Shown here: positions 30,112-58,321 of the stretch, in pieces | Numbering within the stretch: position 1 is the stretch's first letter | Layout of the letters: every line of letters starts with the position of its first letter | Origin: Candidatus Vecturithrix granuli | GTDB lineage: Bacteria > Moduliflexota > Moduliflexia > Moduliflexales > Moduliflexaceae | Assembly: GCA_000739535.1 (NCBI GenBank) | Contig: DF820466.1 | Span: 466,949 to 530,948, forward strand | Reading direction: 5' to 3' | DNA length: 64,000 nt | Position numbers and translations under genes: made by a program | Notes under the pieces: model-generated | Seen by the model: only the letters and a program-made list of their open reading frames with translations | Database searches by the model: none | Told to the model about the DNA's origin: nothing

Positions 30112-31596
30112 TCACTTCGTCCAGAGCAGGTATCGAGCGGCATCGACAAATGCCTTAATGCAGACGTTGGTATTGGCAAAATCAGGGTTAGCCGTCAGGT
30201 CTGTCCAGGATGCGCCATCTGGAGACATGTAACTTTCGCCGGCATGCGCGGTCGCTGCTGAAGCATCCCCGACCGGAAATTCCAGTGAGAGAGGCCAGGT
30301 ATTAGCGGGAGGAGCCGTAAATTTGATCGCAACCGCAAACCCATTCCCGGCATGCAGCGCGACCGGCTGATTCAGTTTGATCGTGTGATAGCCCGCATAC
30401 GTGACCGTTCCAGTTTGGGTGGCGCCTAACTGATCGCTAAACGAGGAACTTGTTGAGGAATCAGTCTTTGTATCATAGATCCGAATCTCGTATGCCATAT
30501 TCGAAGCTCCGACCGAAAGCCCTACTGCCGTCAAGATACCATCTTGTGTGGGCGTAAACCAGTTAGCTCCCCAGACAATATTCGAACCATAGGAGACAGC
30601 ACCCGTGTTGCCAAGAGGATCGTACATATAGATTTTCTGAAATGCCAGGGAAGCGTCCGCTTTTTCGTCGAACGCCGCCAGTTCCCCAAAGGCAAGTTTG
30701 GTATCAGCATACGCTATGTAAAAATAACCGGCCTCGCCCCACCCAGTCCCCCAACTGTTGCGGATGATAAAGGCTCCCGGAGTTGGGGCTACGGTCAGTT
30801 TCGTATCATCCCAACCCACAATCACTATTGCATGATTGCTACCTTCCGGGCCATTGTAGTAATAGGTGTAATTGCTGGCGTTGTAAGACGCACTCTCCCA
30901 ATAGAACGCCGAAGAGAGTGCCCCATAGGTCAGCAGCGCGGATTTGATATAGGCATTATCAGTTACACTGGATCGGACTGGAAGATACAAGATGTTATCT
31001 ATGTATCGGACCGGAGTACAGGTGGTGCAGAAAGTCGAGGTGGGAGAAGGATCATAGGGATCATCGGACTCGCTGATCGGACCATCAGAACGGGCAAGAT
31101 ACACCACGGTCATTTGTGTATAGCCTCCACTACAGGGACCCAGGTCAAAGCCATGCCGGTGCTTCAAATTATCTTCCGAGAAATCGGGATTACTGTCCAG
31201 ACCGAATTTTTTCAAATGACTTTCCAGGCTACCATAGTTCGCAAACGCCCAACATGTCCCACAACTACCCTGATCCCTGATCGGTGAAAGGAGGCTGTCA
31301 TTCTGATTACCATCCCCATTGGGATCGCGCAGGTCATATTTCGGATCAGACGGAGACGCTTGCCTTTTGTCAGGAACATGGATTTCCGGTAATAGCGGAG
31401 AAGGGATATACCCCAGCGCATGGCCTTCCTCATCCATGATCATTCTGCGTGGAGATTTCAGGTACTCTACAAAAGCGGGGTTCAACGGCGCCAATTGCGG
31501 CGTTTCTTGCGCATATCCAGGCGTGCTCAGTCCCCCGTTTAACAACATTCCCCCACCAATGACGCCCAGCAACACGACTATTTGAGTTCTATTCAT
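30112..31596 (-). CDS. Secreted papain-like (C1A) peptidase with YLLWTK tag
   Basis: This 494-residue peptidase has a signal peptide (1-29) and a propeptide to about 85. The catalytic residues are C115 (G-S-C-G-T-C-W-A-F), H255 (S-N-H-A-I-V-I-V-G-W) and N280 (R-N-S-W-G-T-G-W-G). A beta-rich C-terminal domain (about 330-485) follows, and the protein ends A-A-R-Y-L-L-W-T-K directly before TGA. Secreted protein degradation is likely. AAAGGAG precedes the start. The tag codons are TAC CTG CTC TGG ACG AAG. Confidence 0.92.
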   Translation of the reverse strand: MNRTQIVVLLGVIGGGMLLNGGLSTPGYAQETPQLAPLNPAFVEYLKSPRRMIMDEEGHALGYIPSPLLPEIHVPDKRQASPSDPKYDLRDPNGDGNQNDSLLSPIRDQGSCGTCWAFANYGSLESHLKKFGLDSNPDFSEDNLKHRHGFDLGPCSGGYTQMTVVYLARSDGPISESDDPYDPSPTSTFCTTCTPVRYIDNILYLPVRSSVTDNAYIKSALLTYGALSSAFYWESASYNASNYTYYYNGPEGSNHAIVIVGWDDTKLTVAPTPGAFIIRNSWGTGWGEAGYFYIAYADTKLAFGELAAFDEKADASLAFQKIYMYDPLGNTGAVSYGSNIVWGANWFTPTQDGILTAVGLSVGASNMAYEIRIYDTKTDSSTSSSFSDQLGATQTGTVTYAGYHTIKLNQPVALHAGNGFAVAIKFTAPPANTWPLSLEFPVGDASAATAHAGESYMSPDGASWTDLTANPDFANTNVCIKAFVDAARYLLWTK

Positions 31597-31672
31597 TATA
31601 GTACTCCTTTTGTTTGCGTATTCTCGGCCAATTAAATCTTCATCAAACGAAACTACAAACAGCGCGGCTTCT

Positions 31673-33049: not shown

Positions 33050-33263
33050 ATTCCCTCCTAAAAGTAACTACAAGGATTTCACATAAGAAGCAGGATTGCT
33101 CGAAAATTTCCGATGTGCGGAAACTTGTCAATAGAAAAAACGGAAGAGGGGTGAAATAATAAGCGGCGCCGTTTCCTGAGGTTTTGGAAAACCTCTCCCT
33201 GGATGTGGGTTCTAAGGGCTTGAAGGCGAACGAACACCGGCGCGGGCTGCCACACCTCGCGCC

Positions 33264-33387: not shown

Positions 33388-33408
33388 CACCTCACGCCAG
33401 TGTGATTG

Positions 33409-34212
33409 TCACCTGGTCCAGAGAAGGTAAGCGTTTGATTGGCCGAGGGAGGAGGTAGCCTGAAGCATATCATACGCGCCCGAACTTCCTGCCGGAAGAT
33501 AGTCCGCCAACACGATCCACTGGAGATTCGTCCACACAACGCCGCTGAGGGTTGGCGTAGTGATGGTAAATGTTCTGGTCGCTCCATTGGCTAAATCTGA
33601 CGTGATGGCTTGCGAAACGGCAGCCCGAACGTACCGCTTCGTCAATCGTTCTGTTGCGCCGGGCGCGGTGGTAAACATTTCATATACAATCGCCCACACC
33701 GTTGCCGAGTTACTGGTACCAAGGGTCACGCCGCTCTGGTTAGTCAGTTGTACGCTAAACTGGAGTGTATCGCCAATCCGCTGGCTGCTGGCAGTGAGCG
33801 TGGCCTGCGCCGGCCGCGCTAAGGAAGCGTCAACCATCGCACTATATTTTGTGGCAAAATCTTCATACCCGTTACTGATAGCATTCCCGCTGTCGATCAT
33901 GACCAAAGGTAAGGAGACCACACCTCCTGTAGAAGCTGCCCACCACCGACTCTGGCGACTGCTAAAGAGACTACTATCCACATCATACTCTATAAACACA
34001 ACAGGTTGGTTCGCATATTTAGCGACTAATGTATCTTCGATGGCCAAACTGGCCTGCTGGCTATTCCATCAGGTGTATCGCAAAAAGGCTTCAAACACGA
34101 CGAAGCGCTACCCCTGCGCGAATGAGGACTCCACAGCTACGCCAAACAACAGCACGATGATCACACATAAGCCAGCAATCATGCTCATCCACCACTGGAT
34201 GCGAGTCATCAT
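33409..34212 (-). pseudogene. Thioredoxin-fold secreted protein with two in-frame stops and a YLLWTR tag
   Basis: From the ATG at 34212 (GAGGAGGAAATA upstream) the frame encodes a signal peptide ending S-F-A-Q-G. Then comes TAG, R-F-V-V-F-E-A-F-L-R-Y-T, TGA and W-N-S-Q-Q-A, followed by an uninterrupted frame to the tag S-N-A-Y-L-L-W-T-R. The region after the first stop resembles thioredoxin-fold proteins of the Omp28 type, where Cys would be expected at the TGA. TAG could be a mutated CAG. The single open frame, intact domain and intact tag suggest recent inactivation. Selenocysteine recoding of the TGA alone would not explain the TAG. Confidence 0.75.
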
Positions 34213-34891: not shown

Positions 34892-34896
34892 GGTTG

Positions 34897-36327
34897 TCAT
34901 TTCGTCCAGAGGATGTAAGAATTGCCAGACTGTTCGATTGGTACGGCCTGATGCGCAATTGATCCGAGTGAAGCCTTCACCACCGCGGTGAAATACGACA
35001 TGTTCAGATATTGCAATTTGTCGTTCTTGGTATGGTAGTAGGGGTTAAAATCATCGTCATCCTCAATCGCCCACAGGGCGGCATACCCAAACCCCCAAAA
35101 CGAAGCATGATCACTGAAATCATATCCATTGCTGATGATGAGCGGCGTCAGGCTGCTGCTCAACCCATAAGTGTTAATCACCTGAACCAAAAGCTGAGCC
35201 AGGGCCAGATCGCCGGCATAGCCAGGGTTGGAAGGCAGGCGCGTATAGAGCCGAAAATCCGGTCCACCTTTGTTATCCCAGGCGATCATATCCAGGTTAT
35301 ACACGGCCACAATGTTTTGATTTGCATTATATACCGACTCGGCATACGCGTAGCTGCCAAGAAAATCTATCTCCTCGCCCGTAAAGAAAACAAAGCGCAC
35401 AGTACGTTCGAAGGTGTACGCACTCATCACATCGGCGGCGACCATCACTCCGGCCGCGCCGCTGGCATTGTCATCTGCTCCGGGCGCTAACCCGCTGGCA
35501 GGCATATCATCCAGGTGGGCAGTGATCAAGACAATTTCGCCGGGTCGGGTCGTTCCTCGCAGTTCCCCGATCACATTACGCCCCGAACTCTCATAATCAT
35601 CATTATTCCAGTTCTGGTACCTCACTGCCAGTCCCAACGCTTGCAGATGCTCATAGACATACTGGGTGGCCTTTTGGATCGGCGTGCCTGAATCTGTGTG
35701 GCGCGTCGTGATTGTATAAGACGCGCCGCCAATGATGGCTGGCGTTACGCCGCTTAGACGGCTGGTGTAAGCACTCAGCGTACTTTGCGTCACCTGATCA
35801 ATCAGGTTTTGAATCAATGGGAGCGGGGTAATGGCTTTAGTGCGGAGTCTTTCAGACACTCGCAGGATCATTGGCCGCTTCCGCAGCCACGCAATTTCGA
35901 ACCCCAGATTGGCAAGCCGTTCCGCCTGAGATGGGGTGGCGCGGACAAGGAGGTACTTGCCATCATCGTACAAGACTGTCATAATCGTAACGGCTTGTTG
36001 CCGCGCCCCTTGCCGCCGTTCATAGGCCAGCAGATACCATTCATCCGGCTTCAATGCCGCTACAGCATCCACAATGCGATAGGATAACTGCCGTTGCTGC
36101 AACGCCTGTTCCGAGACAAGCGTTAAGACATACTCCTGACCGGCGGCATCCAGCAGATGTGCATGGATCGGAATCCCAAGCTCCGCAATCGCCCCTGTGA
36201 CATCCACCTGCGCCAACATGCGAGTCTCTTCCGTCGGCTCGTCTGCCGCAGCCCAGGAGGTCAGGAGCAGAAGAGCAAGCATTCCAAACAAGACTCTCGA
36301 GCGCGTCCATCTTATGAATTGCACCAT
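34897..36327 (-). CDS. Secreted M28-family zinc aminopeptidase with YILWTK tag
   Basis: The protein has 476 residues from the ATG at 36327 (AAAGGAGAG upstream). A signal peptide (1-28) precedes an N-terminal domain (about 35-200). The M28 domain follows, with zinc ligands H271 and D285 (T-A-H-L-D-D and G-A-D-D-N-A-S-G), catalytic E318 with E319 (T-G-E-E), D346 and a final His in S-D-H-A-S-F. It ends G-N-S-Y-I-L-W-T-K, the tag with Ile at the second position. The frame extends further upstream but without signal-peptide character. Confidence 0.92.
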   Translation of the reverse strand: MVQFIRWTRSRVLFGMLALLLLTSWAAADEPTEETRMLAQVDVTGAIAELGIPIHAHLLDAAGQEYVLTLVSEQALQQRQLSYRIVDAVAALKPDEWYLLAYERRQGARQQAVTIMTVLYDDGKYLLVRATPSQAERLANLGFEIAWLRKRPMILRVSERLRTKAITPLPLIQNLIDQVTQSTLSAYTSRLSGVTPAIIGGASYTITTRHTDSGTPIQKATQYVYEHLQALGLAVRYQNWNNDDYESSGRNVIGELRGTTRPGEIVLITAHLDDMPASGLAPGADDNASGAAGVMVAADVMSAYTFERTVRFVFFTGEEIDFLGSYAYAESVYNANQNIVAVYNLDMIAWDNKGGPDFRLYTRLPSNPGYAGDLALAQLLVQVINTYGLSSSLTPLIISNGYDFSDHASFWGFGYAALWAIEDDDDFNPYYHTKNDKLQYLNMSYFTAVVKASLGSIAHQAVPIEQSGNSYILWTK

Positions 36328-36418: not shown

Positions 36419-37255
36419 TTACTTCGTCCAGAGGAAATATGAATTGGTAGAAGTTGCAGGCACATAGGAGGAAATCCAGGCAGCATAGTTCGAAACTCTG
36501 GTATAAACGCCGTAATATCCTGCCAGAGCGCACCCATCGCCCCAACTGACCACCCCTACCTGCACGTAACTTCCAGAACCAGTTGACACCATTAACGGCC
36601 CGCCGCTGTCTCCCTCGCAGGAATCTTTGCCGCCTGCCGCATACCCGGCGCAAAACATACTGCTTGTAATCTCTCCAGGGTATGCGGCGCTGCACGCGGC
36701 GTCGGAGACGATGGGCACATCTACCTGCATGAGCAGATCAGGATAACTCTCTCCGGGATACTCCGTATTCCCCCAGCCGATGACCGTCGAATTGGTGCCG
36801 GCCGCATTATACGCGCTGCTGGTATTCCAGGCAATCGGAGTCTGCGCTGAGGCCTGCGCTAATTCCAACAGCGCAATATCATTATCAATCGTGGAACTAT
36901 TATAACTGGGATGCGCAATCTGTTGGATCACCGCAATGCGTTCATAGGTTGATGCGGAAGCCGTAAGGTCGTTCGTGCCAAGCACCACATCAATGTTCCC
37001 ACCGAGACAATGGGCGGCCGTCAGCACCCAATTCGCATGAATGAGCGCGCCCCCGCAGAATTGCCCGTAGGGACGCGGATCCTCGTAGCGATCTACTAGT
37101 GCGGCCATCCAGGGCCAGGCACCGTCAGCCGCCACCACCCCTCCGATAATCCGAGTCTGGGCCAACGCCCTCTCCGGCATCCCTCCTGTCCACATCCCAA
37201 CAGCACTCATCAGGATTATCGTCACGACTACCTTACAAAACCACCTTATAGTCAT
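36419..37255 (-). CDS. Secreted trypsin-like serine peptidase with YFLWTK tag
   Basis: This 278-residue peptidase has a signal peptide (about 1-33). The mature start I-I-G-G-V at 36 follows Arg. The triad is H82 (L-T-A-A-H-C), D126 (N-D-I-A-L-L) and S217 (E-G-D-S-G-G-P), and D211 in the specificity pocket predicts cleavage after Lys/Arg. The catalytic domain ends normally at about A-A-W-I-S-S-Y-V, and a short linker then leads to T-N-S-Y-F-L-W-T-K, so the tag is an appended module. AGGAG precedes the ATG. Confidence 0.93.
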   Translation of the reverse strand: MTIRWFCKVVVTIILMSAVGMWTGGMPERALAQTRIIGGVVAADGAWPWMAALVDRYEDPRPYGQFCGGALIHANWVLTAAHCLGGNIDVVLGTNDLTASASTYERIAVIQQIAHPSYNSSTIDNDIALLELAQASAQTPIAWNTSSAYNAAGTNSTVIGWGNTEYPGESYPDLLMQVDVPIVSDAACSAAYPGEITSSMFCAGYAAGGKDSCEGDSGGPLMVSTGSGSYVQVGVVSWGDGCALAGYYGVYTRVSNYAAWISSYVPATSTNSYFLWTK

Positions 37256-37519: not shown

Positions 37520-39256
37520 TCACTTTGTCCACAATAGATAACTTATTGGGGAACGGGGACCGTAGAGCGGCAACGGCTGGCCGTACTCAAAGGCACCCAG
37601 ATCGGGTGCGCCGGAAAGGGAAAAGGCATCATTGAGATTGGAGATCGCCGCGCCGGCGTTAATCTCCGGCGCGCCCGCAACCAGCCGCAAGTCCCGGCTG
37701 CCTGGCGCAACCGGCTGGTTCCACGCGGCTGGCAGGGCGGCGTTCACTACATGACCAAACGCCGCCGCGACGCCATGCTCCTCGACTCCATCGGGCAAAT
37801 CCAGCAGAGTATTGTACTGGGTACCATTCCACTTGAAATAGGGCAGGCTGGCGCGGGTGGTGCCCCAGGCGTTGTAATCAAAATCGCGGAATCCTTCGTC
37901 AGGGGCCGTGATAAACTCAAAGGCATAGTCAGTGCCTAAAAAAAGGTTGTTCCGAAAAACCGCATTGCGCCACATTGAGCCATCATCGCCGTGACCGTCG
38001 TCAAGCTTGGCGCTCGTGTTGTGAATAACGTAGAAGCCTGTCGTCTGGTTGTGCATCTTGATCGGCGTGCTTTCCAGATTGAACAACTCATTGCGGAAGA
38101 TGTAGGCCGGACCGCCACGAATAGGCTGGACGCTCACGCCCATCCGCGCATTCATCACCCGGTTACGCCAGACCCGCACGTTGGCCTGATTGTAGTCTAT
38201 CTCGATGCCGTCATCTACACAATAGGCAATGTCATTGCCGTAAATATCGTTGCCGAAAGATGACCCGGTAAAAGGCTGGACCGAGACCCCGTCGCCAAAG
38301 TTTTGTACCGTGTTGTGGCAGACCACATTGCCGTAGCCGCGCAGATCAATGCCTCGTTCCTCTGGAATATCGCTGCCGGGCCAGGTTGTGCGTCCCGTGA
38401 TCACATTATCGCATACGGTCTGGTTGCCTTCCAGAGCGCCATCACGCCGGTTGTAGATGCCAAAACCGATGTTCTGGATGACATTTCGGCGGATCACGAT
38501 ATCGTGGCTGTTTTGGGCATCTACGCCCCAATATCCGTTCTGAATGGTCAGCCCTGCGAGAATCACATAGGCAATGCTCTGGCCGTACTCGCCTAACGTG
38601 ACGACGCCTCGATCCGTGTCGTTCCCATCTATGATCGCTGAACCGATGGCTGGTCCCTGGAACACAATTGGGTGTCCGGCAGTACCGCTCGTGAGCAGTT
38701 GAAACGAGCTATATGTACCGGCCGCGACGTGGAAAATATCTCCAGGCTGCGCATTGTTCGCGGCCGTCTGTAATCCTCGAAAGGGATTGCCGCTGCTGCC
38801 GTCGCCGCCGCTGCTGCCAGGGATGATGTAACGATGAGTGCCAGCAGGATCAGGCTGGGGTTCAGTACGCGTGGCAGCCGTGACGATTTGGGTTGCGCTC
38901 CCCCCGTCAGGATCGCTCAAGGTCAGGCGGAGTTGGTAGATTGTCCCGCTTGCAAGGAACAACGCACTGGCGGCCCAGTAATTCAAACCGAGCGCCGAAC
39001 CGTTCACAATAATCGTCGGATACGCCCGCATGGCCGGTGCGCCAGACTTCCAGACACTTTCGCCCTGCTTGCGGAATTCGACGGTCATGGAACTATCTAA
39101 GTCATCATCGCCTGTAATCCACCACAGCACGCCAATATGGTTGAAGGTTGCATCAGTGCGAATTGTACCGGGAACAACGGCTGTCGCTGCAAAACTCACA
39201 GCACTGGTCAGCATGAATATGATGAGTCCGATCATATAGGTCAACAATGTTTTCAT
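37520..39256 (-). CDS. Secreted right-handed beta-helix protein with YLLWTK tag
   Basis: The protein has 578 residues from the ATG at 39256 (GGGGAGAA upstream). A signal peptide (1-23) is followed by a fibronectin-like region (to about 130). The parallel beta-helix (about 140-530) has recurring N-x-x-x-x-N-x-I-x-x-x-x rungs (H-D-I-V-I-R-R-N-V-I, G-N-D-I-Y-G-N-D-I-A), typical of polysaccharide lyases and surface proteins. It ends P-I-S-Y-L-L-W-T-K. The leucine codons here are CTA TTG, unlike most other copies, which shows protein-level conservation. Confidence 0.87.
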   Translation of the reverse strand: MKTLLTYMIGLIIFMLTSAVSFAATAVVPGTIRTDATFNHIGVLWWITGDDDLDSSMTVEFRKQGESVWKSGAPAMRAYPTIIVNGSALGLNYWAASALFLASGTIYQLRLTLSDPDGGSATQIVTAATRTEPQPDPAGTHRYIIPGSSGGDGSSGNPFRGLQTAANNAQPGDIFHVAAGTYSSFQLLTSGTAGHPIVFQGPAIGSAIIDGNDTDRGVVTLGEYGQSIAYVILAGLTIQNGYWGVDAQNSHDIVIRRNVIQNIGFGIYNRRDGALEGNQTVCDNVITGRTTWPGSDIPEERGIDLRGYGNVVCHNTVQNFGDGVSVQPFTGSSFGNDIYGNDIAYCVDDGIEIDYNQANVRVWRNRVMNARMGVSVQPIRGGPAYIFRNELFNLESTPIKMHNQTTGFYVIHNTSAKLDDGHGDDGSMWRNAVFRNNLFLGTDYAFEFITAPDEGFRDFDYNAWGTTRASLPYFKWNGTQYNTLLDLPDGVEEHGVAAAFGHVVNAALPAAWNQPVAPGSRDLRLVAGAPEINAGAAISNLNDAFSLSGAPDLGAFEYGQPLPLYGPRSPISYLLWTK

Positions 39257-39544: not shown

Positions 39545-40522
39545 TCATTTTGTCCAGAGCAGATACACATTTGCCGCAATCTGGCCGGAGTTCGGGTTTA
39601 TCATCAGTGAAGAAACGTCCACCGCTTCAAAATCTGAACCGTGGATATTGCTTAATTTAGCCAGATCATCATTGTTCCAGCGTTCATCCGGCGCGCCGGA
39701 GAGATACCACGCCGCACCATTATCTGCGATGATCATGCCATATTTCTTCAAGGCGCGTAAGATCACCTGCACTTCAGACGAAAAGCTTGAAATATTCACA
39801 TTCGCCTTCAGCCGAAATCGTTGTCCCATCGGGGGATATTGCGTCCCAGTCAGTTCGAATGCAAAGTGGCGGGCCGGCCACACATACGCGCGCCGCGTTT
39901 GCGGCACCGTAAAGCGCAGCGCATGTCGAATTTCTCCGGCCGCGGCTTCATCATACCGCACTAATCCAGGAAAGATCGGCAAACCAGCCGCATCCGCCGA
40001 TGTCCAGCCATCCGGGCGCAAAGCATTGGAAGTCAGCGGAAAGATCGCGCCTGAATCGGCATTCCAACTGCCATCAGGTTGATAGGCTGCCCGGTATAAT
40101 TCGTACAACACACAGTTCCCGGTCTCCACCACCAACACATGATGGTCGCTCCCCCATTCGATTGGCGCATCAGGCGGAATGGGGTACGGCCCCGGATCGC
40201 TTTCCTTCGGATAGGCGACGAAGTGGATGGGGACTTTTGGCTGTGTGCCCGGCACATTCACAAAGGGAATCCCAATCGGACCGCCATCCCAGGTGTCGGA
40301 GCCAAAATCGGCGTGCATTCCCGTTGAGGCTCCAATTGTGGCAATATACGCGGCCGAGTTCGCGTCAACAGGTAAGGCGTCAATCGGCGTGTTCCAAATA
40401 TTATCCGCCGGAAACACCGAGCATCCGCTGGCGCGCCCGGCATTCCAAATCAACGCCGCCGCAATCATCAGCAAAATCATATATGTCTTCGATGGATGTA
40501 AAAAATGGTCGTCGCTCGCCAT
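39545..40522 (-). CDS. Secreted protein of unknown function with YLLWTK tag
   Basis: The protein has 325 residues from the ATG at 40522 (GGAGG upstream). The signal peptide (about 1-33) ends near G-R-A-S-G-C. The mature protein starts C-S-V-F-P-A-D-N-I-W-N-T-P-I, a pattern seen in uncharacterised secreted proteins, with His/Asp-rich segments H-A-D-F-G-S-D-T-W-D-G-G and H-H-V-L-V-V-E-T-G-N. No family is named with confidence. It ends A-N-V-Y-L-L-W-T-K and TGA. Confidence 0.8.
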   Translation of the reverse strand: MASDDHFLHPSKTYMILLMIAAALIWNAGRASGCSVFPADNIWNTPIDALPVDANSAAYIATIGASTGMHADFGSDTWDGGPIGIPFVNVPGTQPKVPIHFVAYPKESDPGPYPIPPDAPIEWGSDHHVLVVETGNCVLYELYRAAYQPDGSWNADSGAIFPLTSNALRPDGWTSADAAGLPIFPGLVRYDEAAAGEIRHALRFTVPQTRRAYVWPARHFAFELTGTQYPPMGQRFRLKANVNISSFSSEVQVILRALKKYGMIIADNGAAWYLSGAPDERWNNDDLAKLSNIHGSDFEAVDVSSLMINPNSGQIAANVYLLWTK

Positions 40523-41576: not shown

Positions 41577-41730
41577 AAAGCCGGGCTACCATTCCTGGCA
41601 ACCCGGCTGTCTTGGGATTGAATAATGAAGATTGGAGAGAAAAGGGTTCTCAATGCTCAATCTTTAATTCCAAGGCCCGTGGCTTTCCGCCCCCACCTCA
41701 CGATGGGTTTGGTTTTCTCAGGCTCACAAC
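41577..41730 (-). promoter_or_regulatory. GEMM cyclic-dinucleotide riboswitch A
   Basis: On the minus strand the order is GAGCCTGAG, AAACCAAACC, a stem-loop, GGGGCGGAAAGCC, a variable stem-loop and GACAGCCGGGTTGCC, the hallmark layout of GEMM-I (cyclic di-GMP or cGAMP) aptamers. The last segment, GCCGGGTTGCC, also pairs with GGTAGCCCGGC just downstream, followed by TTTT, forming a terminator (41577-41609). Ligand binding should hold the 3' strand in the aptamer and prevent termination, so an ON switch is predicted. Confidence 0.88.
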
Positions 41731-44174: not shown

Positions 44175-44282
44175 AAAATAAAAAGCCGGGTTCCTCATTT
44201 GAGGTAACCCGGCTGTCTTTATGAAAAGATCCGTAGCTTTCCGTCCCCACCTCACGGTAGGTTTGGTTTTCTCAGGTTCACA
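44175..44282 (-). promoter_or_regulatory. GEMM cyclic-dinucleotide riboswitch B
   Basis: The minus strand has AACCTGAG, AAACCAAACC, GGGGACGGAAAGC, a short variable stem and GACAGCCGGGTTACC. GCCGGGTT pairs with AACCCGGC (stem closed by CTCA/TGAG) before TTTTTATTTT, giving a strong terminator that shares the aptamer's 3' strand. An ON switch is predicted, controlling the beta-propeller gene. Confidence 0.9.
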
Positions 44283-47709: not shown

Positions 47710-49254
47710 TCACTTTGTCCAGAGTAAATAGGAGTCTGAGAGATACCCGGAATCAAAGAACACATCATAATACGTATCACGAAAATCTGTCCAGGCGATG
47801 CCAGCTTCCTGAGCTTCAGGTTTGGTCGGATTGGCGCAAACAGCCGGCCTGGGATACCCCGTGCTGGCAGAAGCCTCTTCATTAACCGTCACAAGAGTCG
47901 TCCAACCACTTGAGAAGCTCGTCGGTATCTGAGTGTATCGAACGTCATATTCCGGATATCGCGTGAAAGCGGCATGGAAGTTTCCCAGTGAATCACTCCG
48001 GCTAAGCTCCACGCCGTCTTCGTCAGAAGTAGACGATGTTGACAGACCCCAGCCTTTGCTCCAGCTTGTTCCGCCATTGGTTGTATAGGCGTAATTGATG
48101 TCCAGATCCCCCGAATTCTGAAAATCCCTGGTATAGGCTACAAGCACCGAATTATTGCCAAACGCGGCGGACACGCGCGGATGATATTCCTTCCCCGAAC
48201 CCCCACTGGAAAGCGAGACGGGCGTTCCCCAGCTATTCCCCGAATTGGTACTCTGTGTCACCCAGTTCCGAATCTCCGATAAGGCCGGCTTCTCGAAGAC
48301 CACAAACAAGTCCCCATTGGAAGTGCCATACGTAATATCCGGTCTTGCCTCCCAACTGGAGTTTTCAGATCCGCCCGTGATGTTCGTGGGAGTACTCCAG
48401 GTGTTGCCGAAATCCGTGCTGCGGCTAAAATACACCGGATAGTAATCAACCGACTTTAGAGCGTATGTAACATACACATAGTGAAGTATTGTAAAATCAG
48501 GGTAATCTGTACATATTTCAGGGTAGATGTCGTTGGTCGTGATAGAGGTGGTGGCAACAGTCTCAGCAATCCATGCCTCGCCAACCGTATTAATCCGGAA
48601 AACGTCAACCCACTTTGAACTACTTGTCGTTCCTTCCATGGCGACATAGACGAATTTTTCAGTGCTGCTTTTTTCAGCATACGCGATTGACGGATGCCTT
48701 GAAGTGGTACCGCCAGTTGTCAGCCAGAACCAGTATGTCCAACTCTGTCCCCCATCCGTAGAGCGATAGATGTACACCTGACCGTTTGTGTTATTTTGAA
48801 CGGCGACATAGAGGACGCCAGCAGGAGTGCTCACCATGGAAGGTTCCCGGACATCAATGCTGGAGCTATTAATCCGGACATCACCGGTTGCCCACTTGCG
48901 AAGATCCTTCGATTCGACCCTGTCCGTAACAAGACCTGCCTGCTGTTGGTGCTCGTCCTCCTCCGGCAACGAGATTCTGGAAGTCATGCCGTGCAATGCG
49001 TCCAATGTGACCTGAAGTTCCCTGGCTGTTTCGCTATCGCCAGCCTTGCGGGCCGTTCTCAGATCGTTAAGCAGCGTCTTTTCTTCAGACCTTAACGCGA
49101 TTGGCGGGACCTGCACAATACTGGGTTTCTCAACCTTCTGACCAGCCCCTGGCCCCCCGGCCTTTCCAGTACCAAGATCCTTATCCTGGGCGAAGGACAT
49201 GCCGCCGCCGACAAACAAACAACACAAACATACATATACAACGAATCGTTTCAT
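47710..49254 (-). CDS. Secreted BNR/sialidase-like propeller protein 2 with YLLWTK tag, riboswitch-controlled
   Basis: This 514-residue protein has a signal peptide (1-22) and an N-terminal helical, charged region (about 25-115) absent from the paralogue. Asp-box repeats follow (S-T-D-G-G-Q-S-W, S-T-D-F-G-N-T-W, S-T-N-S-G-N-S-W, T-T-N-G-G-T-S-W). The C-terminal V-F-F-D-S-G-Y-L-S-D-S-Y-L-L-W-T-K closely parallels the neighbour's end, consistent with duplication. AGGAGG precedes the ATG. Riboswitch C lies about 380 bp upstream. Confidence 0.88.
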   Translation of the reverse strand: MKRFVVYVCLCCLFVGGGMSFAQDKDLGTGKAGGPGAGQKVEKPSIVQVPPIALRSEEKTLLNDLRTARKAGDSETARELQVTLDALHGMTSRISLPEEDEHQQQAGLVTDRVESKDLRKWATGDVRINSSSIDVREPSMVSTPAGVLYVAVQNNTNGQVYIYRSTDGGQSWTYWFWLTTGGTTSRHPSIAYAEKSSTEKFVYVAMEGTTSSSKWVDVFRINTVGEAWIAETVATTSITTNDIYPEICTDYPDFTILHYVYVTYALKSVDYYPVYFSRSTDFGNTWSTPTNITGGSENSSWEARPDITYGTSNGDLFVVFEKPALSEIRNWVTQSTNSGNSWGTPVSLSSGGSGKEYHPRVSAAFGNNSVLVAYTRDFQNSGDLDINYAYTTNGGTSWSKGWGLSTSSTSDEDGVELSRSDSLGNFHAAFTRYPEYDVRYTQIPTSFSSGWTTLVTVNEEASASTGYPRPAVCANPTKPEAQEAGIAWTDFRDTYYDVFFDSGYLSDSYLLWTK

Positions 49255-49631: not shown

Positions 49632-49795
49632 AAAAAAGAAAAGCCGGGTTTCCTTTCCAGGCGACCCGGCTGTCTTGGGATTTTAGATTGTAGATTGCGG
49701 ATGTTCACAATCTTCAATCTCAAATCGTAAATTATAAGATCCGCGGCTTTCCGTCCCCATCTCACGGTGGGTTTAGCTTTGTCAGGGTTATGAAC
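49632..49795 (-). promoter_or_regulatory. GEMM cyclic-dinucleotide riboswitch C
   Basis: The minus strand has CCCTGACAAAGCTAAACC, a GTGA-capped stem, GGGGACGGAAAGCC, a long variable stem and GACAGCCGGGTCGCC. GCCGGGT pairs with ACCCGGC followed by TTTTCTTTTTT, a strong terminator overlapping the aptamer. An ON switch is predicted. Confidence 0.9.
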
Positions 49796-49979: not shown

Positions 49980-51332
49980 TCACTTCGTCCAGAGCAGGTA
50001 GGCATTACCGGATCTGAATTCATACGCCCCAATATCGTACGCGCCCGCTTGCGGTCGCGCTTGCCCGTCAAAATCAACTGTTGGAGCGTCTGTCGCTGCA
50101 CCCTGGTTGATGGCCGGTGAAGTAGATTGGAGATAAAAATCAGCGTCCGTAGGATTAATAAATAGCGGGTCTGCTTCTACCACCGCGGTGCCATCATTTT
50201 CGGCATATCCTTCGACCCCCCAGACAAGATTATGGTCACTCGTTACTGACTCTGGATATTCATGTTGAATTTGAAACTGGGCATTCTCACTGCAAATATT
50301 GTTACGAATCACGATATTCTCAACATGGGCGACATCCGTATTCTCTAGCGATATTCCGCCGCCCCAACCAGGCTCAGGATTGCCATTCTGGTAACATGTG
50401 TTATTGATCATCGTCACATTCTTAACGGGTTGGGGTAGTTCAGAAGGTTCGTGACTGAGGCAGATGCCGGAATAATAGTTCTGGTACGCCAGATTATTAT
50501 AGATTCTGATATTTTCAAGCAGACCGCCCTGTTCAGATGCCAGGGCAAAGCCATTGTTGCCGGTATCATGCACGCGATTTTGATAGAGGTCAAGATGATA
50601 GGTGTGCTGATCATGAGCGTCAACGTAGATCCCGACCCGCGTGACGTCGTGGACATGATTCCGATAGATTTTTCCATCATGGGCTCCCTGCTTGGCACAT
50701 ATACCCTCTTTATAACCATGATGCACATGATTATTTTTGACCTCAAAAAATCCGGTTTGAGCAATGCTAATACATTCCTGCCATCCGCCGCTGCCCGCCT
50801 GATTCACCTCATTCCCGTCAATTACAATATTTGTGCTCTCCCATACCCCGATCCCGGAAGACCAGGTATGGGATGTGTAATTCTTTTCGATGGTAATATA
50901 GTCAGAATTTCTGACCATGATACCAGCATTATCATTATAAAAACCGGCATTTATGACCCGTAAGCCAGACACTTTGAGATAGCTTTTATTAGCAATGTGA
51001 AACACACCATATAAATCATCGGGTAATGTGATTCCGCTGCCGTCAATCGTGACGGTCTCCCCCGGATACGCCGCATAGACAATATATTGCCCGCTGCGGC
51101 CTGAGTTTTGGGGCGTCACCTGTTCCGAGTACGTTCCGGCCCTGATATACACCGTATCCCCGGCGACTAAGGTTTGCGCTGCTTTTGTGATGGTTCGCCA
51201 CGGCTTCGCCAATGTGCCAGGGTTTGAATTATTGCCTCCCGGTGCGACATAATAAGTAGTTCCGAAAGCTGCTATTGGGAGCAGAAGCGACCAGACCAAC
51301 ATGATCGCGCTGAAAAAACCTTTACCTTTCAT
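49980..51332 (-). CDS. Secreted right-handed beta-helix (DUF1565-type) protein with YLLWTK tag
   Basis: This 450-residue protein has a signal peptide (1-23). Y-Y-V-A-P-G-G-N-N-S-N-P-G-T is followed by A-G-D-T-V-Y-I-R-A-G-T-Y-S-E, the classic N-terminal motif of DUF1565/pectate-lyase-like helices. Beta-helix rungs follow to about 400 (N-I-V-I-D-G-N-E-V, I-R-I-Y-N-N-L-A-Y). It ends D-I-G-A-Y-E-F-R-S-G-N-A-Y-L-L-W-T-K: G-A-Y-E-F is the usual end of the domain, so the tag is an appendage. Confidence 0.9.
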   Translation of the reverse strand: MKGKGFFSAIMLVWSLLLPIAAFGTTYYVAPGGNNSNPGTLAKPWRTITKAAQTLVAGDTVYIRAGTYSEQVTPQNSGRSGQYIVYAAYPGETVTIDGSGITLPDDLYGVFHIANKSYLKVSGLRVINAGFYNDNAGIMVRNSDYITIEKNYTSHTWSSGIGVWESTNIVIDGNEVNQAGSGGWQECISIAQTGFFEVKNNHVHHGYKEGICAKQGAHDGKIYRNHVHDVTRVGIYVDAHDQHTYHLDLYQNRVHDTGNNGFALASEQGGLLENIRIYNNLAYQNYYSGICLSHEPSELPQPVKNVTMINNTCYQNGNPEPGWGGGISLENTDVAHVENIVIRNNICSENAQFQIQHEYPESVTSDHNLVWGVEGYAENDGTAVVEADPLFINPTDADFYLQSTSPAINQGAATDAPTVDFDGQARPQAGAYDIGAYEFRSGNAYLLWTK

Positions 51333-51575: not shown

Positions 51576-51701
51576 GAAGCTGTTTTAAAAGTCCATGCAA
51601 CGGGCATTTCGAGAGAGGTGAACAGGAGTGTCAAAGCTCTGCTTTGACAGCGAAAGCAGAGCTTTCGCACTCCTCACCTGTAAACTTTTAAAACAGCTTC
51701 T
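51576..51701. repeat. Nested palindromic element with 18-bp perfect outer arms
   Basis: AGAAGCTGTTTTAAAAGT (51576-51593) and ACTTTTAAAACAGCTTCT (51684-51701) are perfect arms. Inside lies the GGAGTG..AGCTCTGCTT / AAGCAGAGCT..CACTCC core of the family also seen at 0.05 and 24.4 kb. The right arm touches the stop codon of the spherulin-4 gene, so it may also end that transcript. The rest of the gap 51333-51575 shows nothing clear. Confidence 0.75.
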
Positions 51702-52522
51702 TAGCGCGTCCAGAGCAGATAAGAACGTGCGTTGAGCGACGTGAGATAGTCCACAAATTCCGTCCAATAACTTGGCAACGTGTCCCAGGGATTATCCATA
51801 ATATCGTTGGTGACGTACACGTAGCCGATATGGCGAGCCATCGCCAGATCCACATGTGATTTCATCGTATTCACGTCCGGGGTCGTATGCACCAGCACGG
51901 CAAAACGTTCTGCCGGATAGGCGCTGACATAGGAATCGGGCTCATAACCGGGCCATTCAGTGGAATAACTTTCGAAAATGATACTGATATCGCCAGCCGG
52001 GCGGCTGACATATTGCTCGATAATGTTTGTGCCCGGGTTCAACACCACAGTGTTAAAATTCGGCTTTGATCTGATATAATCGTACAATTCCCCATAGTAA
52101 CTGAGTTTATCAAGCGTAGTAGCCGTTTCATCCAGGAAGATGCCATGAATATTGAAACATTGAACGTACAGATCAATATCCGCCTTCACATTATTAATCT
52201 GGCGATCCCCATTCGTGGTAGGCACATAGCCCACAATCGTCACGCCGGCGTTCCGCAGCGTGTTCAGTCCCTGAATATAAGCGGCGTCGGGCGGACACGT
52301 TCCCGGTCCGCTATTGGGGTTAATGACTGCCGTCACCGGCAATTTGGAAGCAGCAGTCGCCACGTCATTCCATCGATTGTCCGGGTAAATGTATAATGGA
52401 ATGAGAATCTGAAGTTGCACCTTCGTTTGCGCCCGGGTTGTTATGGGTTGAATTATTGCCATACTCACCACGAATATAGACAGGAAAATCATGTAACGGT
52501 ACGTGTGCCTGAGATGAATCAT
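51701..52522 (-). CDS. Secreted spherulin-4/GH135-like glycoside hydrolase with YLLWTR tag, riboswitch-controlled
   Basis: This 273-residue protein has a signal peptide (about 1-30). The TIM-barrel-like domain contains I-P-L-Y-I-Y-P (substrate loop), V-I-N-P-N-S-G-P-G, V-G-Y-V-P-T-T-N-G and I-F-L-D-E-T, typical of spherulation-specific family 4. Relatives include galactosaminogalactan hydrolases such as Sph3, so biofilm polysaccharide is a plausible substrate. It ends A-R-S-Y-L-L-W-T-R with TAA. AAAGGAG precedes the ATG; riboswitch D lies about 80 bp upstream. Confidence 0.88.
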   Translation of the reverse strand: MIHLRHTYRYMIFLSIFVVSMAIIQPITTRAQTKVQLQILIPLYIYPDNRWNDVATAASKLPVTAVINPNSGPGTCPPDAAYIQGLNTLRNAGVTIVGYVPTTNGDRQINNVKADIDLYVQCFNIHGIFLDETATTLDKLSYYGELYDYIRSKPNFNTVVLNPGTNIIEQYVSRPAGDISIIFESYSTEWPGYEPDSYVSAYPAERFAVLVHTTPDVNTMKSHVDLAMARHIGYVYVTNDIMDNPWDTLPSYWTEFVDYLTSLNARSYLLWTR

Positions 52523-52603: not shown

Positions 52604-52712
52604 TAAAAAAAGACAGCCGGATTCCTGAATTCAGGCAACCCGGCTGTCTTGATAAAAGATCCGCGGCTTTCCGTCCCCATCTCACGGTAGGTTTAGCTTT
52701 GCCAGAAAAGCA
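52604..52712 (-). promoter_or_regulatory. GEMM cyclic-dinucleotide riboswitch D
   Basis: The minus strand has CTGGCAAAGCTAAACC, a GTGA-capped stem, GGGGACGGAAAGCC, a short stem and GACAGCCGGGTTGCCTG. The terminator stem GACAGCCGG..CCTG / CAGG..CCGGCTGTC is followed by seven Ts. It is very similar to riboswitch C. An ON switch is predicted, controlling the spherulin-4 gene. Confidence 0.92.
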
Positions 52713-53106: not shown

Positions 53107-54216
53107 TCACTTCGTCCAGAGCAAATAGGAATTGTCCTCTGTCCATTTTGCAATAGGGTAGGCTGGCGTGGTGCCGGCCGTATTGAACGTCCCCCCGGCA
53201 TAGAGCGAGCCGTCGCTCCCGACCGCCAATGCCCTGACCTCGCCGCTGCCTATGCCATCCCCCAGGGCCTCCCACGTTGTCCCGTTCCAGCGCGCCACTC
53301 GGTTCGCCGCCACGCCGCCGGCCGTGGTGAACTCTCCACCGACGTAAAGCTTGCCATCGCTCCCGGCCGCTAATGCATAAACTGTGCCATTCATGCCGGT
53401 TCCCAGGGCTTGCCAGGCAGTTCCGCTCCAGCGCGCCACTCGATTCACCGTCACACCCCCGGCCGTGATGAACTTTCCACCGGCGTAAAGTAGGCCGTCG
53501 CTTCCGATCGCCAATGCCGTGACTTCGTCGTTCATGCCGCTCCCCATGGCTTGCCATGCACTCCCAGTCCATCGCGCCACTCGGTTCACTGCCACACCGC
53601 TAGCTGTGGTAAAGTACCCTCCGGCGTAGAGCGTCCCGCTTCCGACTGCCAACGCATAGACGTCGCTGTCCATGCCGGTTCCCAGAGCCTGCCACGTACT
53701 CGTACTCGTATTCCAGCGCGCCACTCGGTTTGCCGCCACGCCTCCAGCCGTGGTAAACGCCCCGCCGGCGTAAAGCGTGCCATCACTCCCGACCGCCAAC
53801 GCATAGACCGTGCTGTTCACGCCATTCCCCAGAGTAGCCCAGGCACTCCCATTCCAGTAGGCTACCCTGAGCGCCGCCACGCTTCCAGCCGTGGTGAATG
53901 CCCCACCAGCATAAAGCGTGCCGCTGCTGCCGGCCGCCAACGCAAAGACTGTGCTGGTCATGCCATTTCCCATGTTAGCCCAGGCACTCCCATTCCAGTA
54001 GGCTACCCTGAGCGCCGCCACGCCGCCGGCTGTGGTAAAATACCCTCCGGCGTACAGCTTACCGTCGCTCCCAACCACCAACGCCCTGACCTGCTCATTC
54101 ATGCCGCTCCCCAGGGCTTGCCAGGCAGCCTGAACCGGCGTCACCGCCAGGCTCCATCCCAAGCAAACCAGTATGATGATTCTATAAATACCCGTCTGAT
54201 ATCGTTGTGTATTCAT
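53107..54216 (-). CDS. Secreted seven-repeat beta-propeller protein with YLLWTK tag
   Basis: This 369-residue protein has a signal peptide (1-30). Seven repeats of about 47 residues follow, each with the pattern W-x-x-L-G-x-G-M/V-x-x-x-V-x-A-L-A-V-G-S-D-G-x-L-Y-A-G-G-x-F-T-T-A-G-G-V. The repeats are nearly identical, which suggests recent expansion into a seven-bladed propeller. It ends D-N-S-Y-L-L-W-T-K. A decayed GEMM riboswitch lies about 330 bp upstream. CAGGAG precedes the ATG. Confidence 0.87.
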   Translation of the reverse strand: MNTQRYQTGIYRIIILVCLGWSLAVTPVQAAWQALGSGMNEQVRALVVGSDGKLYAGGYFTTAGGVAALRVAYWNGSAWANMGNGMTSTVFALAAGSSGTLYAGGAFTTAGSVAALRVAYWNGSAWATLGNGVNSTVYALAVGSDGTLYAGGAFTTAGGVAANRVARWNTSTSTWQALGTGMDSDVYALAVGSGTLYAGGYFTTASGVAVNRVARWTGSAWQAMGSGMNDEVTALAIGSDGLLYAGGKFITAGGVTVNRVARWSGTAWQALGTGMNGTVYALAAGSDGKLYVGGEFTTAGGVAANRVARWNGTTWEALGDGIGSGEVRALAVGSDGSLYAGGTFNTAGTTPAYPIAKWTEDNSYLLWTK

Positions 54217-54735: not shown

Positions 54736-55818
54736 TCACTTTGTCCAGAGCAGGTAATTATCCATCGAACTAACCGGCTGTGCCGGATCAAAGACAATGA
54801 CAGTATACGTGAAACTTCTGGGACTTCCGCCAATCAGCACATTAGAAACGCTAACCGTATATGTGACTAAATGTTCTGATGGCCATGTGGCATCATCTGC
54901 CATACCAAGAGGCCTCCAAACCAGTGTATTTTCTCCATAGCCTGTCACATACGTTTCCTGTGTCACCGAAATGGGACTTCCGTTTTGGGTCATTGTCACC
55001 GTAGCGCTTCCAAAATTAGCAGAAGCATAGGCAAATGACCATCGTGGATAGATGACCTGGTATGGGACATACCCAGGCGGGGGCCAGGCAACATACTCCT
55101 CTCGAGTGGTCGGTCGCGGGTCCCACGTATGCGAATCAAACACCCATAAGGCATTGGCTGCCCATTGATATCCGGGAGCGCTCGGAACATCTCCGGTTCC
55201 CATCAGTTGGGTTTGAGGATACAATACCCAACGCCGATGTCCGGCAGCAGAGTTACTGGAACCCTTGTCTTTCATGTAACCTGCGATATTATGGGTGAGG
55301 GTCGGATAGCCCATCCTGATGTTTGATTTTCCGGCGCCTTCTTTGCCCTCCTCCGTATAACATGTCCATGAAGAGTCAGGGTCATGGCTTAGTTGGCCGT
55401 TAACACTTATCATCAAAGCGGTTTGTTGATCTTTATTATTGTACTCATTGAAAAATGTCACTCCAGCAGGTATACCGGCCATGGCGCGAAAATAATTCAA
55501 CTCCAGGAGCATAACATCCTTAAACGCCTGAGTGGTCGTCCCTGCCGTACATGAAACATGATTTCCCGTCCAGCCCATTGCGACCCCCTCAGAGCCGACA
55601 TAGTGACTGTAATACAGGTCTCTCGACGCTTGCCAGTTCTGAGGATTCACACTCAGGGCTCTAGTAGCGCGAGTGATGGTCCCTATATCTTCTTGCGGGA
55701 GTGGTGTTGCGGGAAATGTGGGGGGAATGCCTAACTGGATAGTCTCCGAAAAAGCTGTCAGAGAAAGCATACATAAACAACCGATCAGACAGAAGAGATG
55801 ATACATCATTTTTTTCAT
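54736..55818 (-). CDS. Secreted CAP-domain protein with YLLWTK tag
   Basis: This 360-residue protein has a signal peptide (1-24). A CAP/SCP-PR1-like domain (about 60-215) carries M-L-L-E-L-N-Y-F-R-A-M-A-G, Q-T-A-L-M-I-S-V-N-G-Q-L-S-H and G-H-R-R-W-V-L-Y-P with His residues at the expected metal site. A beta-sandwich follows (about 250-350). It ends S-M-D-N-Y-L-L-W-T-K. CAP proteins are secreted and often bind lipids or act on cell walls; the activity here is unknown. AGGAGG precedes the ATG. Confidence 0.87.
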   Translation of the reverse strand: MKKMMYHLFCLIGCLCMLSLTAFSETIQLGIPPTFPATPLPQEDIGTITRATRALSVNPQNWQASRDLYYSHYVGSEGVAMGWTGNHVSCTAGTTTQAFKDVMLLELNYFRAMAGIPAGVTFFNEYNNKDQQTALMISVNGQLSHDPDSSWTCYTEEGKEGAGKSNIRMGYPTLTHNIAGYMKDKGSSNSAAGHRRWVLYPQTQLMGTGDVPSAPGYQWAANALWVFDSHTWDPRPTTREEYVAWPPPGYVPYQVIYPRWSFAYASANFGSATVTMTQNGSPISVTQETYVTGYGENTLVWRPLGMADDATWPSEHLVTYTVSVSNVLIGGSPRSFTYTVIVFDPAQPVSSMDNYLLWTK

Positions 55819-55933
55819 ATTACGAACCTCCTGACTTCGTTTATGTTACTCTTAAAAAAAGCTGATTCAGCTAAAGAAATGTGAAATCCTCCGGTACTGT
55901 TGTCAAGCAAAATTATGGAATTTATATGGGCAT

Positions 55934-58321
55934 TCAGCGCGTCCACAGCAAATAACTGGGCACGGCTTCAATATGCAAGTAATTAATATAGCCGATCTGG
56001 TCATACTTGCCCATCTGGAGCGAGAGTTTTTTATCTTTCACGGTCACGGTTTTGGTGCGGGTAATCCAACTGTTATTGGTCGTTTCACTATTTATAAAGC
56101 TCACGCCCTCGATCACGATGGTATGGTATCTGGTGCTACTGCGCGACCCGACACAGACAGTCACATTGTACGTACCGTTTGGCAGATCGAATTCGAACAC
56201 ATCTTCACGGCTATAATCATTAATCACGGCGCTGCCCAACAGTTTTTTGGGCTCCGGATCGACCCATTGATCCCAGGCGGTATAAAAATTGGCCGACGGC
56301 ACGTCCGCCGCCCGATACCAGCCATAACCCAGACTCGGACTATACAGAGTGTTGCCAATCTTCATATACGTGCGGCCGTTCACAATCAGCGGATTGTCGG
56401 TGGGCTGGCCGGCCGGATCTTGAAAATTGATGTAATAATTCCCCGGCGCGCCGTTTGATCTGGAATGTACGGACGCCGGCGCAATGTCCGGGATGGTCGC
56501 AATTTCGCCGCTGAGTTTGAGTCCGATCAGCCGCCGCAGGTTATACATGAACTCGCTGTCGCGCGTGTAAGAGGTTGGCATCCCAATCACTTTATTCACC
56601 TGCGCATCGGCGGCATTGCTGACATCCGGCTGCGGTTGACCACCGTTTAATAAATAGAAATATTCATAATCTTCTAACCCGTCACGGATCATTTCTAAAC
56701 GGATAGAAGGGACAAAACGGTGGCCGTTTGAGCCATAAGTAATATTGGTATTTGCCTCTGAAGGGGGATACATCAAGAACATTTCGCCGTTCTGGCCGTT
56801 CGGGTTCGGCGAAGTCCAGGGGTTACTGCTCCAGTCATTAAAGGTATAATAAGCGACGCCACGCACGCGGTATTTCCATAAGAACCAGCCCAGGAATTTG
56901 CCTTCAATGGCCGGATGATCGAGAGTAATCGAATTAAAGCGCGGCAAGTAGGTGCTTTTGAGAAAGTAAATCCAGCTTTCCTCGCTGTTATTTTTCAGGC
57001 GCTGCTGTGAGAGCGCCGGATTGAAATGCAGGCCAAAGTGCGGCAACCAGATGTCAATTTGATGATTATAGAAATAATTGGCGTGGTTGTAGATTTCCGG
57101 TTTGGGTTCCTCTGAAACCATCAATTTGAGATTAGGCGCGTATTGTTTCAGATAACGGGAATACCAGGCTACAGCGTCATAATCCGCCTGATTCTGGGGT
57201 TCATTCGCAAAATAGTAATACGCTCTACTCAGATAACCCTTTGCGTTGAGATAATTCTGCATGGCGGTCATATATTGGAACCATTTTTGATTGTAAGCAG
57301 AAGAGGGATTATTGCCGGTGTACCAGTCGCTCGTCGTGCGGGTCTGGCTGCAGAACGTGGAAGGGCGTTGATCGGCGGACGCATCGTTATTCTGAAAGGT
57401 CGCCGCCATAAACGAGGGAAAACCGACGCCGCCATTAAAAGGCTGAGTAAATGTGCTGCTCATCAGACCAGTCCCATTCAGATAGCGCGCCGCTGGTTGT
57501 TCAAAACCCCAGATGCCTTCGTTGTCGGTGAAGGTGCCGCTACAGTTGTAGTCAATATACGGCGCGGCGCCATTCGTGGTCAATCCGCCTGACCAGAGTA
57601 CCGAGCTGGGCACCAGCCGGTGGTCAATCAGAAATTTCTTCATTTTATCCACATACATCCAGTAGTCCGCACCTGTGCCAGAGACGCTATATTTCGCCAG
57701 AATTGTTTGATGGCTAAAATTCATCTGGGAATTAACGTGTAGTTGCGCCGGAAGTGTAAAATTGAACACGTGCAGGCGCACCGGAATAGCGACGCCGCCA
57801 ATCGTTACATTCGTCGTATAATTCCCGGCAGCCGTGGTTGACGGCACATACACATTAATCCAAAAAGCGGTATTTTGACTGGCGGTTACACTGATGGAGG
57901 CTCCACTCGCGATCGGCCATAAGGGATCGGGATTCGCACCGGTCTTCCCAAGATAATCCGTCGCTGTGGTGACATTGATGTATTTGACCTGGAATAATTC
58001 GGTGGTAATCCCTGTTCCAAAACTTCCCATCGTGACCGTCACATTCCCTGATGATGTTGGCTTCACGATGATTTGAAACGGCTCGAATTCCCTTTTGGCG
58101 GCATAGACTTTGACAATTGAGCCAGTATCGGTGGGCACAGCGTCGGTCTTAAACACGCGCTCACTGGGCGGAGTTGTCCAGAACTGATACGCCGACGTAG
58201 ATTGCGTGAGTTTGAAGGTATAATCTTCAGTCTGCGCATTGCCTGCGATTGGCCGCAGCAAGATGACAAGTACGCTCAATATGATAACATTGAACCTGTT
58301 GATGATCATAGCGTTGTTCAT
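55934..58321 (-). CDS. Secreted DUF4091-type glycoside hydrolase-like protein with YLLWTR tag
   Basis: The protein has 795 residues from the ATG at 58321 (in-frame sequence further upstream has no signal-peptide character). A signal peptide (about 1-31) is followed by a beta-sandwich (to about 180). The catalytic-like TIM barrel (about 190-570) ends with R-L-E-M-I-R-D-G-L-E-D-Y-E-Y-F-Y-L-L, the DUF4091 signature. A C-terminal carbohydrate-binding-like domain (about 640-785) follows. It ends A-V-P-S-Y-L-L-W-T-R with TGA. It is likely to act on polysaccharide. Confidence 0.88.
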   Translation of the reverse strand: MNNAMIINRFNVIILSVLVILLRPIAGNAQTEDYTFKLTQSTSAYQFWTTPPSERVFKTDAVPTDTGSIVKVYAAKREFEPFQIIVKPTSSGNVTVTMGSFGTGITTELFQVKYINVTTATDYLGKTGANPDPLWPIASGASISVTASQNTAFWINVYVPSTTAAGNYTTNVTIGGVAIPVRLHVFNFTLPAQLHVNSQMNFSHQTILAKYSVSGTGADYWMYVDKMKKFLIDHRLVPSSVLWSGGLTTNGAAPYIDYNCSGTFTDNEGIWGFEQPAARYLNGTGLMSSTFTQPFNGGVGFPSFMAATFQNNDASADQRPSTFCSQTRTTSDWYTGNNPSSAYNQKWFQYMTAMQNYLNAKGYLSRAYYYFANEPQNQADYDAVAWYSRYLKQYAPNLKLMVSEEPKPEIYNHANYFYNHQIDIWLPHFGLHFNPALSQQRLKNNSEESWIYFLKSTYLPRFNSITLDHPAIEGKFLGWFLWKYRVRGVAYYTFNDWSSNPWTSPNPNGQNGEMFLMYPPSEANTNITYGSNGHRFVPSIRLEMIRDGLEDYEYFYLLNGGQPQPDVSNAADAQVNKVIGMPTSYTRDSEFMYNLRRLIGLKLSGEIATIPDIAPASVHSRSNGAPGNYYINFQDPAGQPTDNPLIVNGRTYMKIGNTLYSPSLGYGWYRAADVPSANFYTAWDQWVDPEPKKLLGSAVINDYSREDVFEFDLPNGTYNVTVCVGSRSSTRYHTIVIEGVSFINSETTNNSWITRTKTVTVKDKKLSLQMGKYDQIGYINYLHIEAVPSYLLWTR

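Follow-up and report, generated by a model that had tools for sequence, protein, structure and literature searches.

Unrelated exported proteins of Candidatus Vecturithrix granuli share a short C-terminal tag, YLLWTK, which is real, well supported and private to this lineage, and which probably acts as an address signal for its carriers. The tag was recognized in a 64,000-nucleotide stretch of contig DF820466.1 (assembly GCA_000739535.1, positions 466,949 to 530,948), here called the window, for which an earlier note, made from the letters alone, had listed 17 such genes. All 17 exist with the ends attributed to them: on translation, each closes with (N/S)SYLLWTK-like residues and then a stop codon. 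All are encoded on the minus strand, sixteen of them within 30112-58321 and the other at 10742-11017 (Table 1).

The tag is also common outside the window. In a regular-expression-type search of the whole genome, by which the earlier note had proposed to check it, the seven-codon pattern YWYHTNYTNTGGAYNARRTRR gave 36 matches in 8.38 Mb (21 contigs) and the reversed-pattern control gave none, which is far above chance and rules out chance as the origin of the tag. Two matches were dropped, one at C20:504779 as a chance open reading frame (ORF) of 33 residues and the other at C16:7185. Reading out the ORFs and including CGN-arginine and M variants brought the total to about 41 tagged genes; the wider pattern and further read-out added genes ending in YLLWTR, YILWTR and MLLWTR (L142, L151 and L135) and two ending in Q (L152 and L153). 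The tagged genes are spread over nine contigs (C4, C5, C10, C14, C15, C16, C18, C19 and C21) and are therefore not a contaminant of a single contig in this genome bin, which is 93.8% complete with 10.75% contamination. Across 38 tagged proteins, conservation was limited to the last seven to eight positions, with S in 29/38, Y in 35/38, the first L in 35/38, the second L and W in 38/38 each, T in 37/38, and K or R in 38/38. N was favoured one position N-terminal of the S (16/38), and there was no conservation further upstream, where the stretch preceding the tag is flexible and rich in S, N, P and G. The full consensus is N/S-S-Y-L-L-W-T-K/R-COOH. At two places (G000:C16:120754-120844 and C4:80164-80407), tagged genes stand tail to tail with their tags flanking a common palindromic terminator.

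The tag is under purifying selection at the protein level. Over its six codons in 40 tag sequences, the ratio of nonsynonymous to synonymous change (pN/pS) was 0.12, while all six Leu codons, both Tyr codons, the K/R alternatives and all three stop codons were used, and the tag is therefore kept as a protein sequence. This ratio rules out an artefact of frame or DNA alone; relatedness of a subset at the DNA level is nevertheless real. The second Leu codon was CTC in 21/38 tags versus 15% in genome usage (p = 1e-8), and AAG was used in 19/32 versus 27% (p = 2e-4). In addition, a subset of tagged genes had a hairpin-forming CAAACGCGCCGGCGCGGG-like sequence after the stop (leave-one-out Mann-Whitney p = 1e-4), with about 14 of the 38 scoring above the 99th percentile of 310 untagged genes. 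Codon bias and common hairpin together are read as common ancestry of some 3' ends, and on this reading a gene can acquire the tag when the end of another gene is copied along with its terminator.

Tagged proteins are strongly associated with export. Signal peptides were found in 28/35 tagged proteins versus 27/255 background proteins (Fisher p = 1.6e-17), as called by a simple script with automatic start choice on the read-out regions, the background being all proteins of sixteen 20-kb regions picked regardless of the tag. This agrees with the expectation of the earlier note that the tag would be enriched on signal-peptide proteins and not equally common on cytoplasmic ones. Some of the seven negative carriers are start miscalls, such as the genes at 34897 and 37520, in each of which translation from a later ATG gives a clear signal peptide. 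Nine of the ten untagged exported proteins scanned in the background regions were periplasmic solute-binding proteins.

The bodies that carry the tag are unrelated, with 57 Pfam families over the 38 proteins, including papain, trypsin, M28, clostripain, GH8, GH114, GH123, spherulin-4, CAP, CHAP, beta-helices and propellers. For the window, the papain, M28, trypsin, GH8, spherulin-4, CAP, beta-helix, propeller and BNR assignments of the earlier note held, and its DUF4091 protein scores as GH123 in Pfam. The tag is appended past the normal domain end, as the note had described: the trypsin domain stops at residue 261 of 278, and one beta-helix protein continues from GAYDIGAYEF into RSGNAYLLWTK. 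For domains that reach the C-terminal region (trypsin, M28, GH8, spherulin-4, papain and lectin-like), the distance from domain end to tag was 11-27 residues. The genome has three papain-family genes, every one of them tagged; the three relatives have no papain-family gene. A predicted structure of the tagged trypsin, made without relatives, had a mean predicted local distance difference test score of 34.5 and was not used.

Choice-of-anchor domains received their NCBIfam name because differing sorting signals follow them in different bacteria. The choice-of-anchor D model matched two carriers and the choice-of-anchor Q model another two, and a further choice-of-anchor D protein of the genome has YLLWTR as its C terminus. 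In these D and Q proteins, YLLWTK occupies the position of the sorting signal.

The tagged proteins and the PEP-CTERM/exosortase proteins of this genome share an extracellular regulon controlled by cyclic diguanylate (c-di-GMP). Four c-di-GMP-I riboswitches were found in the window with Rfam, every one upstream of a tagged gene. The genome has 29 (loci L063-L091), mostly upstream of genes for secreted proteins, which merge into about 26 units when tandem copies are joined. Eight units precede tagged genes (L075, L078, L079, L082/083/087, L084, L086, L090 and L091), and another eight stand before genes with PEP-CTERM or PEP-CTERM-like ends, of which TIGR02595 confirmed seven and the remaining one (L129) was judged similar by eye. 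If the units were placed at random, finding a tagged gene next to eight of 26 would have p = 6e-13 by genes and p = 0.02 by 20-kb bins; both values rest on approximate totals, and the second is the fairer figure because tagged genes cluster. Tandem riboswitches stand before L135:1542 (three) and L144:5155 (two), and single ones precede a folD-like gene (L077) and an operon resembling those for polysaccharide export (L132). Floc formation in Zoogloea reportedly needs PEP-CTERM proteins together with exopolysaccharide (PMC9012009). Taken with the common regulon, this points to a role in matrix formation or aggregation.

Table 1 Tagged genes, c-di-GMP-I riboswitches and attC sites in the window.
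Feature	Position	Strand	C-terminal residues or basis	Remarks
Small secreted protein (91 residues), tagged	10742..11017	-	PNSYLLWTK	integron cassette
Papain (C1) with lectin-like domain, tagged	30112..31596	-	AARYLLWTK	
Tagged, without Pfam match	33409..33999	-	SNAYLLWTR	
Peptidase M28, tagged	34897..36327	-	GNSYILWTK	
Trypsin, tagged	36419..37255	-	TNSYFLWTK	
Beta-helix/DUF1565, tagged	37520..39256	-	PISYLLWTK	
Tagged, without Pfam match	39545..40522	-	ANVYLLWTK	
Tagged, without Pfam match	40645..41550	-	NQAHLLWTK	riboswitch upstream
DUF7948 with SBBP propeller, tagged	41902..44040	-	DNFFLLWTK	riboswitch upstream
GH8, tagged	44445..45761	-	SSSYLLWMK	
BNR repeats, tagged	45889..47280	-	LESYLLWTK	
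BNR-like, tagged	47710..49254	-	SDSYLLWTK	riboswitch upstream
Beta-helix, tagged	49980..51332	-	RSGNAYLLWTK	after choice-of-anchor-Q-like GAYDIGAYEF
Spherulin-4, tagged	51701..52522	-	ARSYLLWTR	riboswitch upstream
DUF5122/Rax2 propeller, tagged	53107..54216	-	DNSYLLWTK	
CAP domain, tagged	54736..55818	-	MDNYLLWTK	
GH123-like, tagged	55934..58321	-	VPSYLLWTR	
c-di-GMP-I riboswitch	41594..41723	-	RF01051, 51.1 bits	upstream of 40645..41550
c-di-GMP-I riboswitch	44199..44276	-	RF03167, 59.8 bits	upstream of 41902..44040
c-di-GMP-I riboswitch	49657..49787	-	RF01051, 43.7 bits	upstream of 47710..49254
c-di-GMP-I riboswitch	52630..52706	-	RF03167, 61.9 bits	upstream of 51701..52522
attC	6004-6116	-	attC model	
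attC	7111-7223	-	attC model	
attC	9007-9120	-	attC model	
attC	9759-9874	-	attC model	
attC	10609-10722	-	one of four model-building sequences	directly after tagged 10742-11017
attC	14836-14948	-	attC model	

The tag seems to spread partly through copied gene 3' ends and partly through integron cassettes. The window encodes a frameshifted integron integrase (16588-17370; TIGR02249, 200 bits) with six minus-strand attC sites beside it (6004-14948), and the tagged gene at 10742-11017 is a cassette within this array. About 75 attC sites in several arrays were found in the genome with a model built from four attC sites. Five tagged genes have an attC site after the stop, three called by the model (10742-11017, C15:316081 and C15:440007) and two read by eye (C14:368690 and C14:377530), one of which is cut by masked bases; three of these sites had served in building the model. 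The main tagged cluster at 30-58 kb has no attC site, and cassettes are therefore one entry route and not the general one. The secreted Amidase_6 protein encoded one gene upstream of the tagged cassette (11073-11825) has GELLWGQ as its C terminus, which may be a variant or a decayed form of the tag. Also in the cassette region is a protein with YadA head repeats (12810-14816) that resembles mosaic adhesive trimer fibres (Bdello_MAT_N). Near some tagged genes (L044, L047 and L055), Acido-Lenti-1 RNAs form inverted pairs with a spacing of about 140 bases, an arrangement that resembles the two ends of a small mobile element more than it does an RNA gene.

The tag was searched for in other genomes, and it proved private to this one. 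The strict pattern was found in 0/58 other genomes, a set that includes one member of the same family and two from the same order, in a collection with very few relatives of this organism. An exact pattern scan of 84,980 GTDB species gave six single matches, in tiny ORFs or proteins without a signal peptide, and a scan of IMG/VR gave two; the matches of both scans are chance. The GTDB scan recovers about 30% of the tags of this genome (12 of the 41 listed), so that a genome with at least 10 tags in similar codons should have shown up; diverged tag residues, or codons unlike those scanned, would escape it. No mention of YLLWTK was found in the literature searched.

The closest likeness is to the PEP-CTERM/exosortase (EpsH) system, in which a C-terminal signal is also found on many unrelated signal-peptide proteins per genome, encoded as single-gene units with large upstream regions and linked to the extracellular matrix (PMC1569441). 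In this genome, the genes of both sets stand behind c-di-GMP-I riboswitches. PEP-CTERM substrates end in a PEP motif, a membrane helix and a basic cluster (PMC1569441), and YLLWTK has none of these. TIGR02595 matched 0/38 tagged proteins, while it did match PEP-CTERM proteins of the same genome, and none of the other NCBIfam models for C-terminal sorting matched the 38. An exosortase is encoded in the genome (G000:C15:109318-110079), and three relatives (G001-G003) have an exosortase but no tag. GlyGly-CTERM (rhombosortase) and MYXO-CTERM (myxosortase) are, like YLLWTK, family-wide tags carried by dozens of surface proteins in an outer-membrane bacterium, and an outer-membrane route is expected for YLLWTK as for them. 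In these signals the motif is joined to a membrane helix and basic residues, and a membrane protease cleaves them (PMC3237569, PMC11980579), whereas YLLWTK is soluble, with nothing following the motif; the combined signature was absent from the tagged C termini. LPXTG, too, is a short C-terminal sorting motif on many surface proteins, but the tagged proteins have neither LPXTG nor a helix, and a sortase was found in 0/4 genomes, with the controls B. subtilis, C. glutamicum and L. lactis positive.

In Bacteroidota, the C-terminal domain of the type IX secretion system (T9SS) is a soluble signal on signal-peptide proteins that directs outer-membrane crossing, and it folds into a unit of about 80 residues. 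The YLLWTK signal is likewise soluble and C-terminal, but has only six to eight residues. T9SS tail models (Por secretion tail) matched none of the 38 tagged proteins at E 0.001, and SprA gave no match in a search in which no control genome was positive. The view of the earlier note that the tag differs from LPXTG, PEP-CTERM and rhombosortase tags is thus borne out, and no described tag is known to match it in its small size and missing membrane part.

A C-terminal signal for sorting, secretion or processing, as the earlier note had proposed, is still the best explanation of a tag that is strongly concentrated at C termini and on proteins with signal peptides. We consider it probable that YLLWTK is an address signal for exported proteins, a reading that covers both outer-membrane crossing and docking, which between them share most of the probability. 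Tagged proteins would cross the inner membrane via Sec, and a dedicated receptor in the periplasm or outer membrane would then recognize the terminal six to eight residues together with the free carboxyl group after W-T-K. No carrier has residues after K/R, and this suggests that recognition involves the free end. The receptor would pass the protein through the outer membrane or dock it on the surface or matrix, such that tagged enzymes and repeat proteins would end outside and untagged solute-binding proteins would remain periplasmic. Part of the tagged set would be switched by c-di-GMP riboswitches alongside PEP-CTERM proteins, as a matrix or aggregation programme. The data show C-terminal conservation under purifying selection, the association with signal peptides and extracellular-type bodies, and the common riboswitch regulon; from there on, we infer the sorting role, the receptor, its recognition site and the fate of the tag, be it retention or cleavage.

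Docking alone, in which proteins are exported by general secretion and then held on the surface, a polysaccharide or a scaffold by a YLLWTK-binding receptor, much as dockerin binds cohesin, is a possible but doubtful sub-case. A short, non-membrane, aromatic and hydrophobic C terminus behind a flexible S/N/P/G-rich stretch would suit it, the carriers are enzymes and propeller or helix proteins that would gain from retention in a matrix, and their c-di-GMP regulon is common with matrix-type PEP-CTERM proteins. However, outer-membrane passage would then depend on a second signal, of which none was seen, and no scaffold or receptor was found. That the tag is instead an unusual form of exosortase, sortase, rhombosortase/myxosortase or T9SS targeting is quite improbable: the exosortase, the PEP-CTERM proteins and the riboswitch regulon in common would fit, but the tag lacks the PEP motif, helix and basic tail as well as any match to the sorting models, sortase is absent with working controls, the relatives with exosortase have no tag, and SprA was not found in the search described above.

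Two further explanations do without an address. The tag could be a functionless hitch-hiker on spreading DNA, either a 3' end with its terminator hairpin or the end of a cassette, as its departure from genome codon usage, the post-stop hairpin common to a group of tags and the attC sites after five tagged genes would allow. Given the low pN/pS, the diverse codons and three stop codons, the confinement of the tag to exported proteins, its occurrence on convergent and tandem genes alike, and the missing common downstream DNA at most tags, this is improbable. It is very unlikely that the tag is the precursor of a peptide, a signal or pheromone, released by cleavage from the ends of many secreted proteins. 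An identical hydrophobic heptapeptide at a free end behind a flexible linker would be expected of such a precursor, but about 40 genes would be wasteful for one peptide, a conserved cleavage site upstream of the motif is missing, and the regulon of the carriers is that of matrix proteins and not of a sensing system.

Several points weigh against an address signal. Three short tagged ORFs have no recognizable signal peptide (L044:8357, L047:10777 and L048:9571), and are perhaps truncated; common DNA at some 3' ends would also be compatible with spread through copied DNA; and the tag is known from only one genome bin, of the completeness and contamination given above. No receptor, translocon or protease was identified for the tag. 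Nor was there a recurrent partner family beside tagged loci, where an all-against-all comparison of untagged neighbours gave only small generic families; in Pfam, the neighbours matched a chloride channel, FloA/NfeD, a solute-binding protein, CHAT-TPR and others. We propose only tentatively the fuller picture of a new outer-membrane export or surface-docking pathway, in a bacterial lineage that is poorly sampled, which reads a free, non-membrane heptapeptide at the C terminus (SYLLWTK-COOH), operates under c-di-GMP control alongside the exosortase system, and can be joined by new genes through 3'-end copying and integron cassettes.

The described tags of outer-membrane bacteria whose use is most similar to that of YLLWTK, PEP-CTERM, GlyGly-CTERM and MYXO-CTERM, carry a membrane helix, and that of T9SS is a folded domain. 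If the address reading is true, a bare six-residue end on about 40 proteins would be a much simpler label, and YLLWTK might be usable as a secretion or display tag, for which a fusion test would be easy. The link to c-di-GMP riboswitches offers a concrete candidate function in matrix building or aggregation, and the link to integrons suggests how a lineage can add new secreted proteins to an existing export route.

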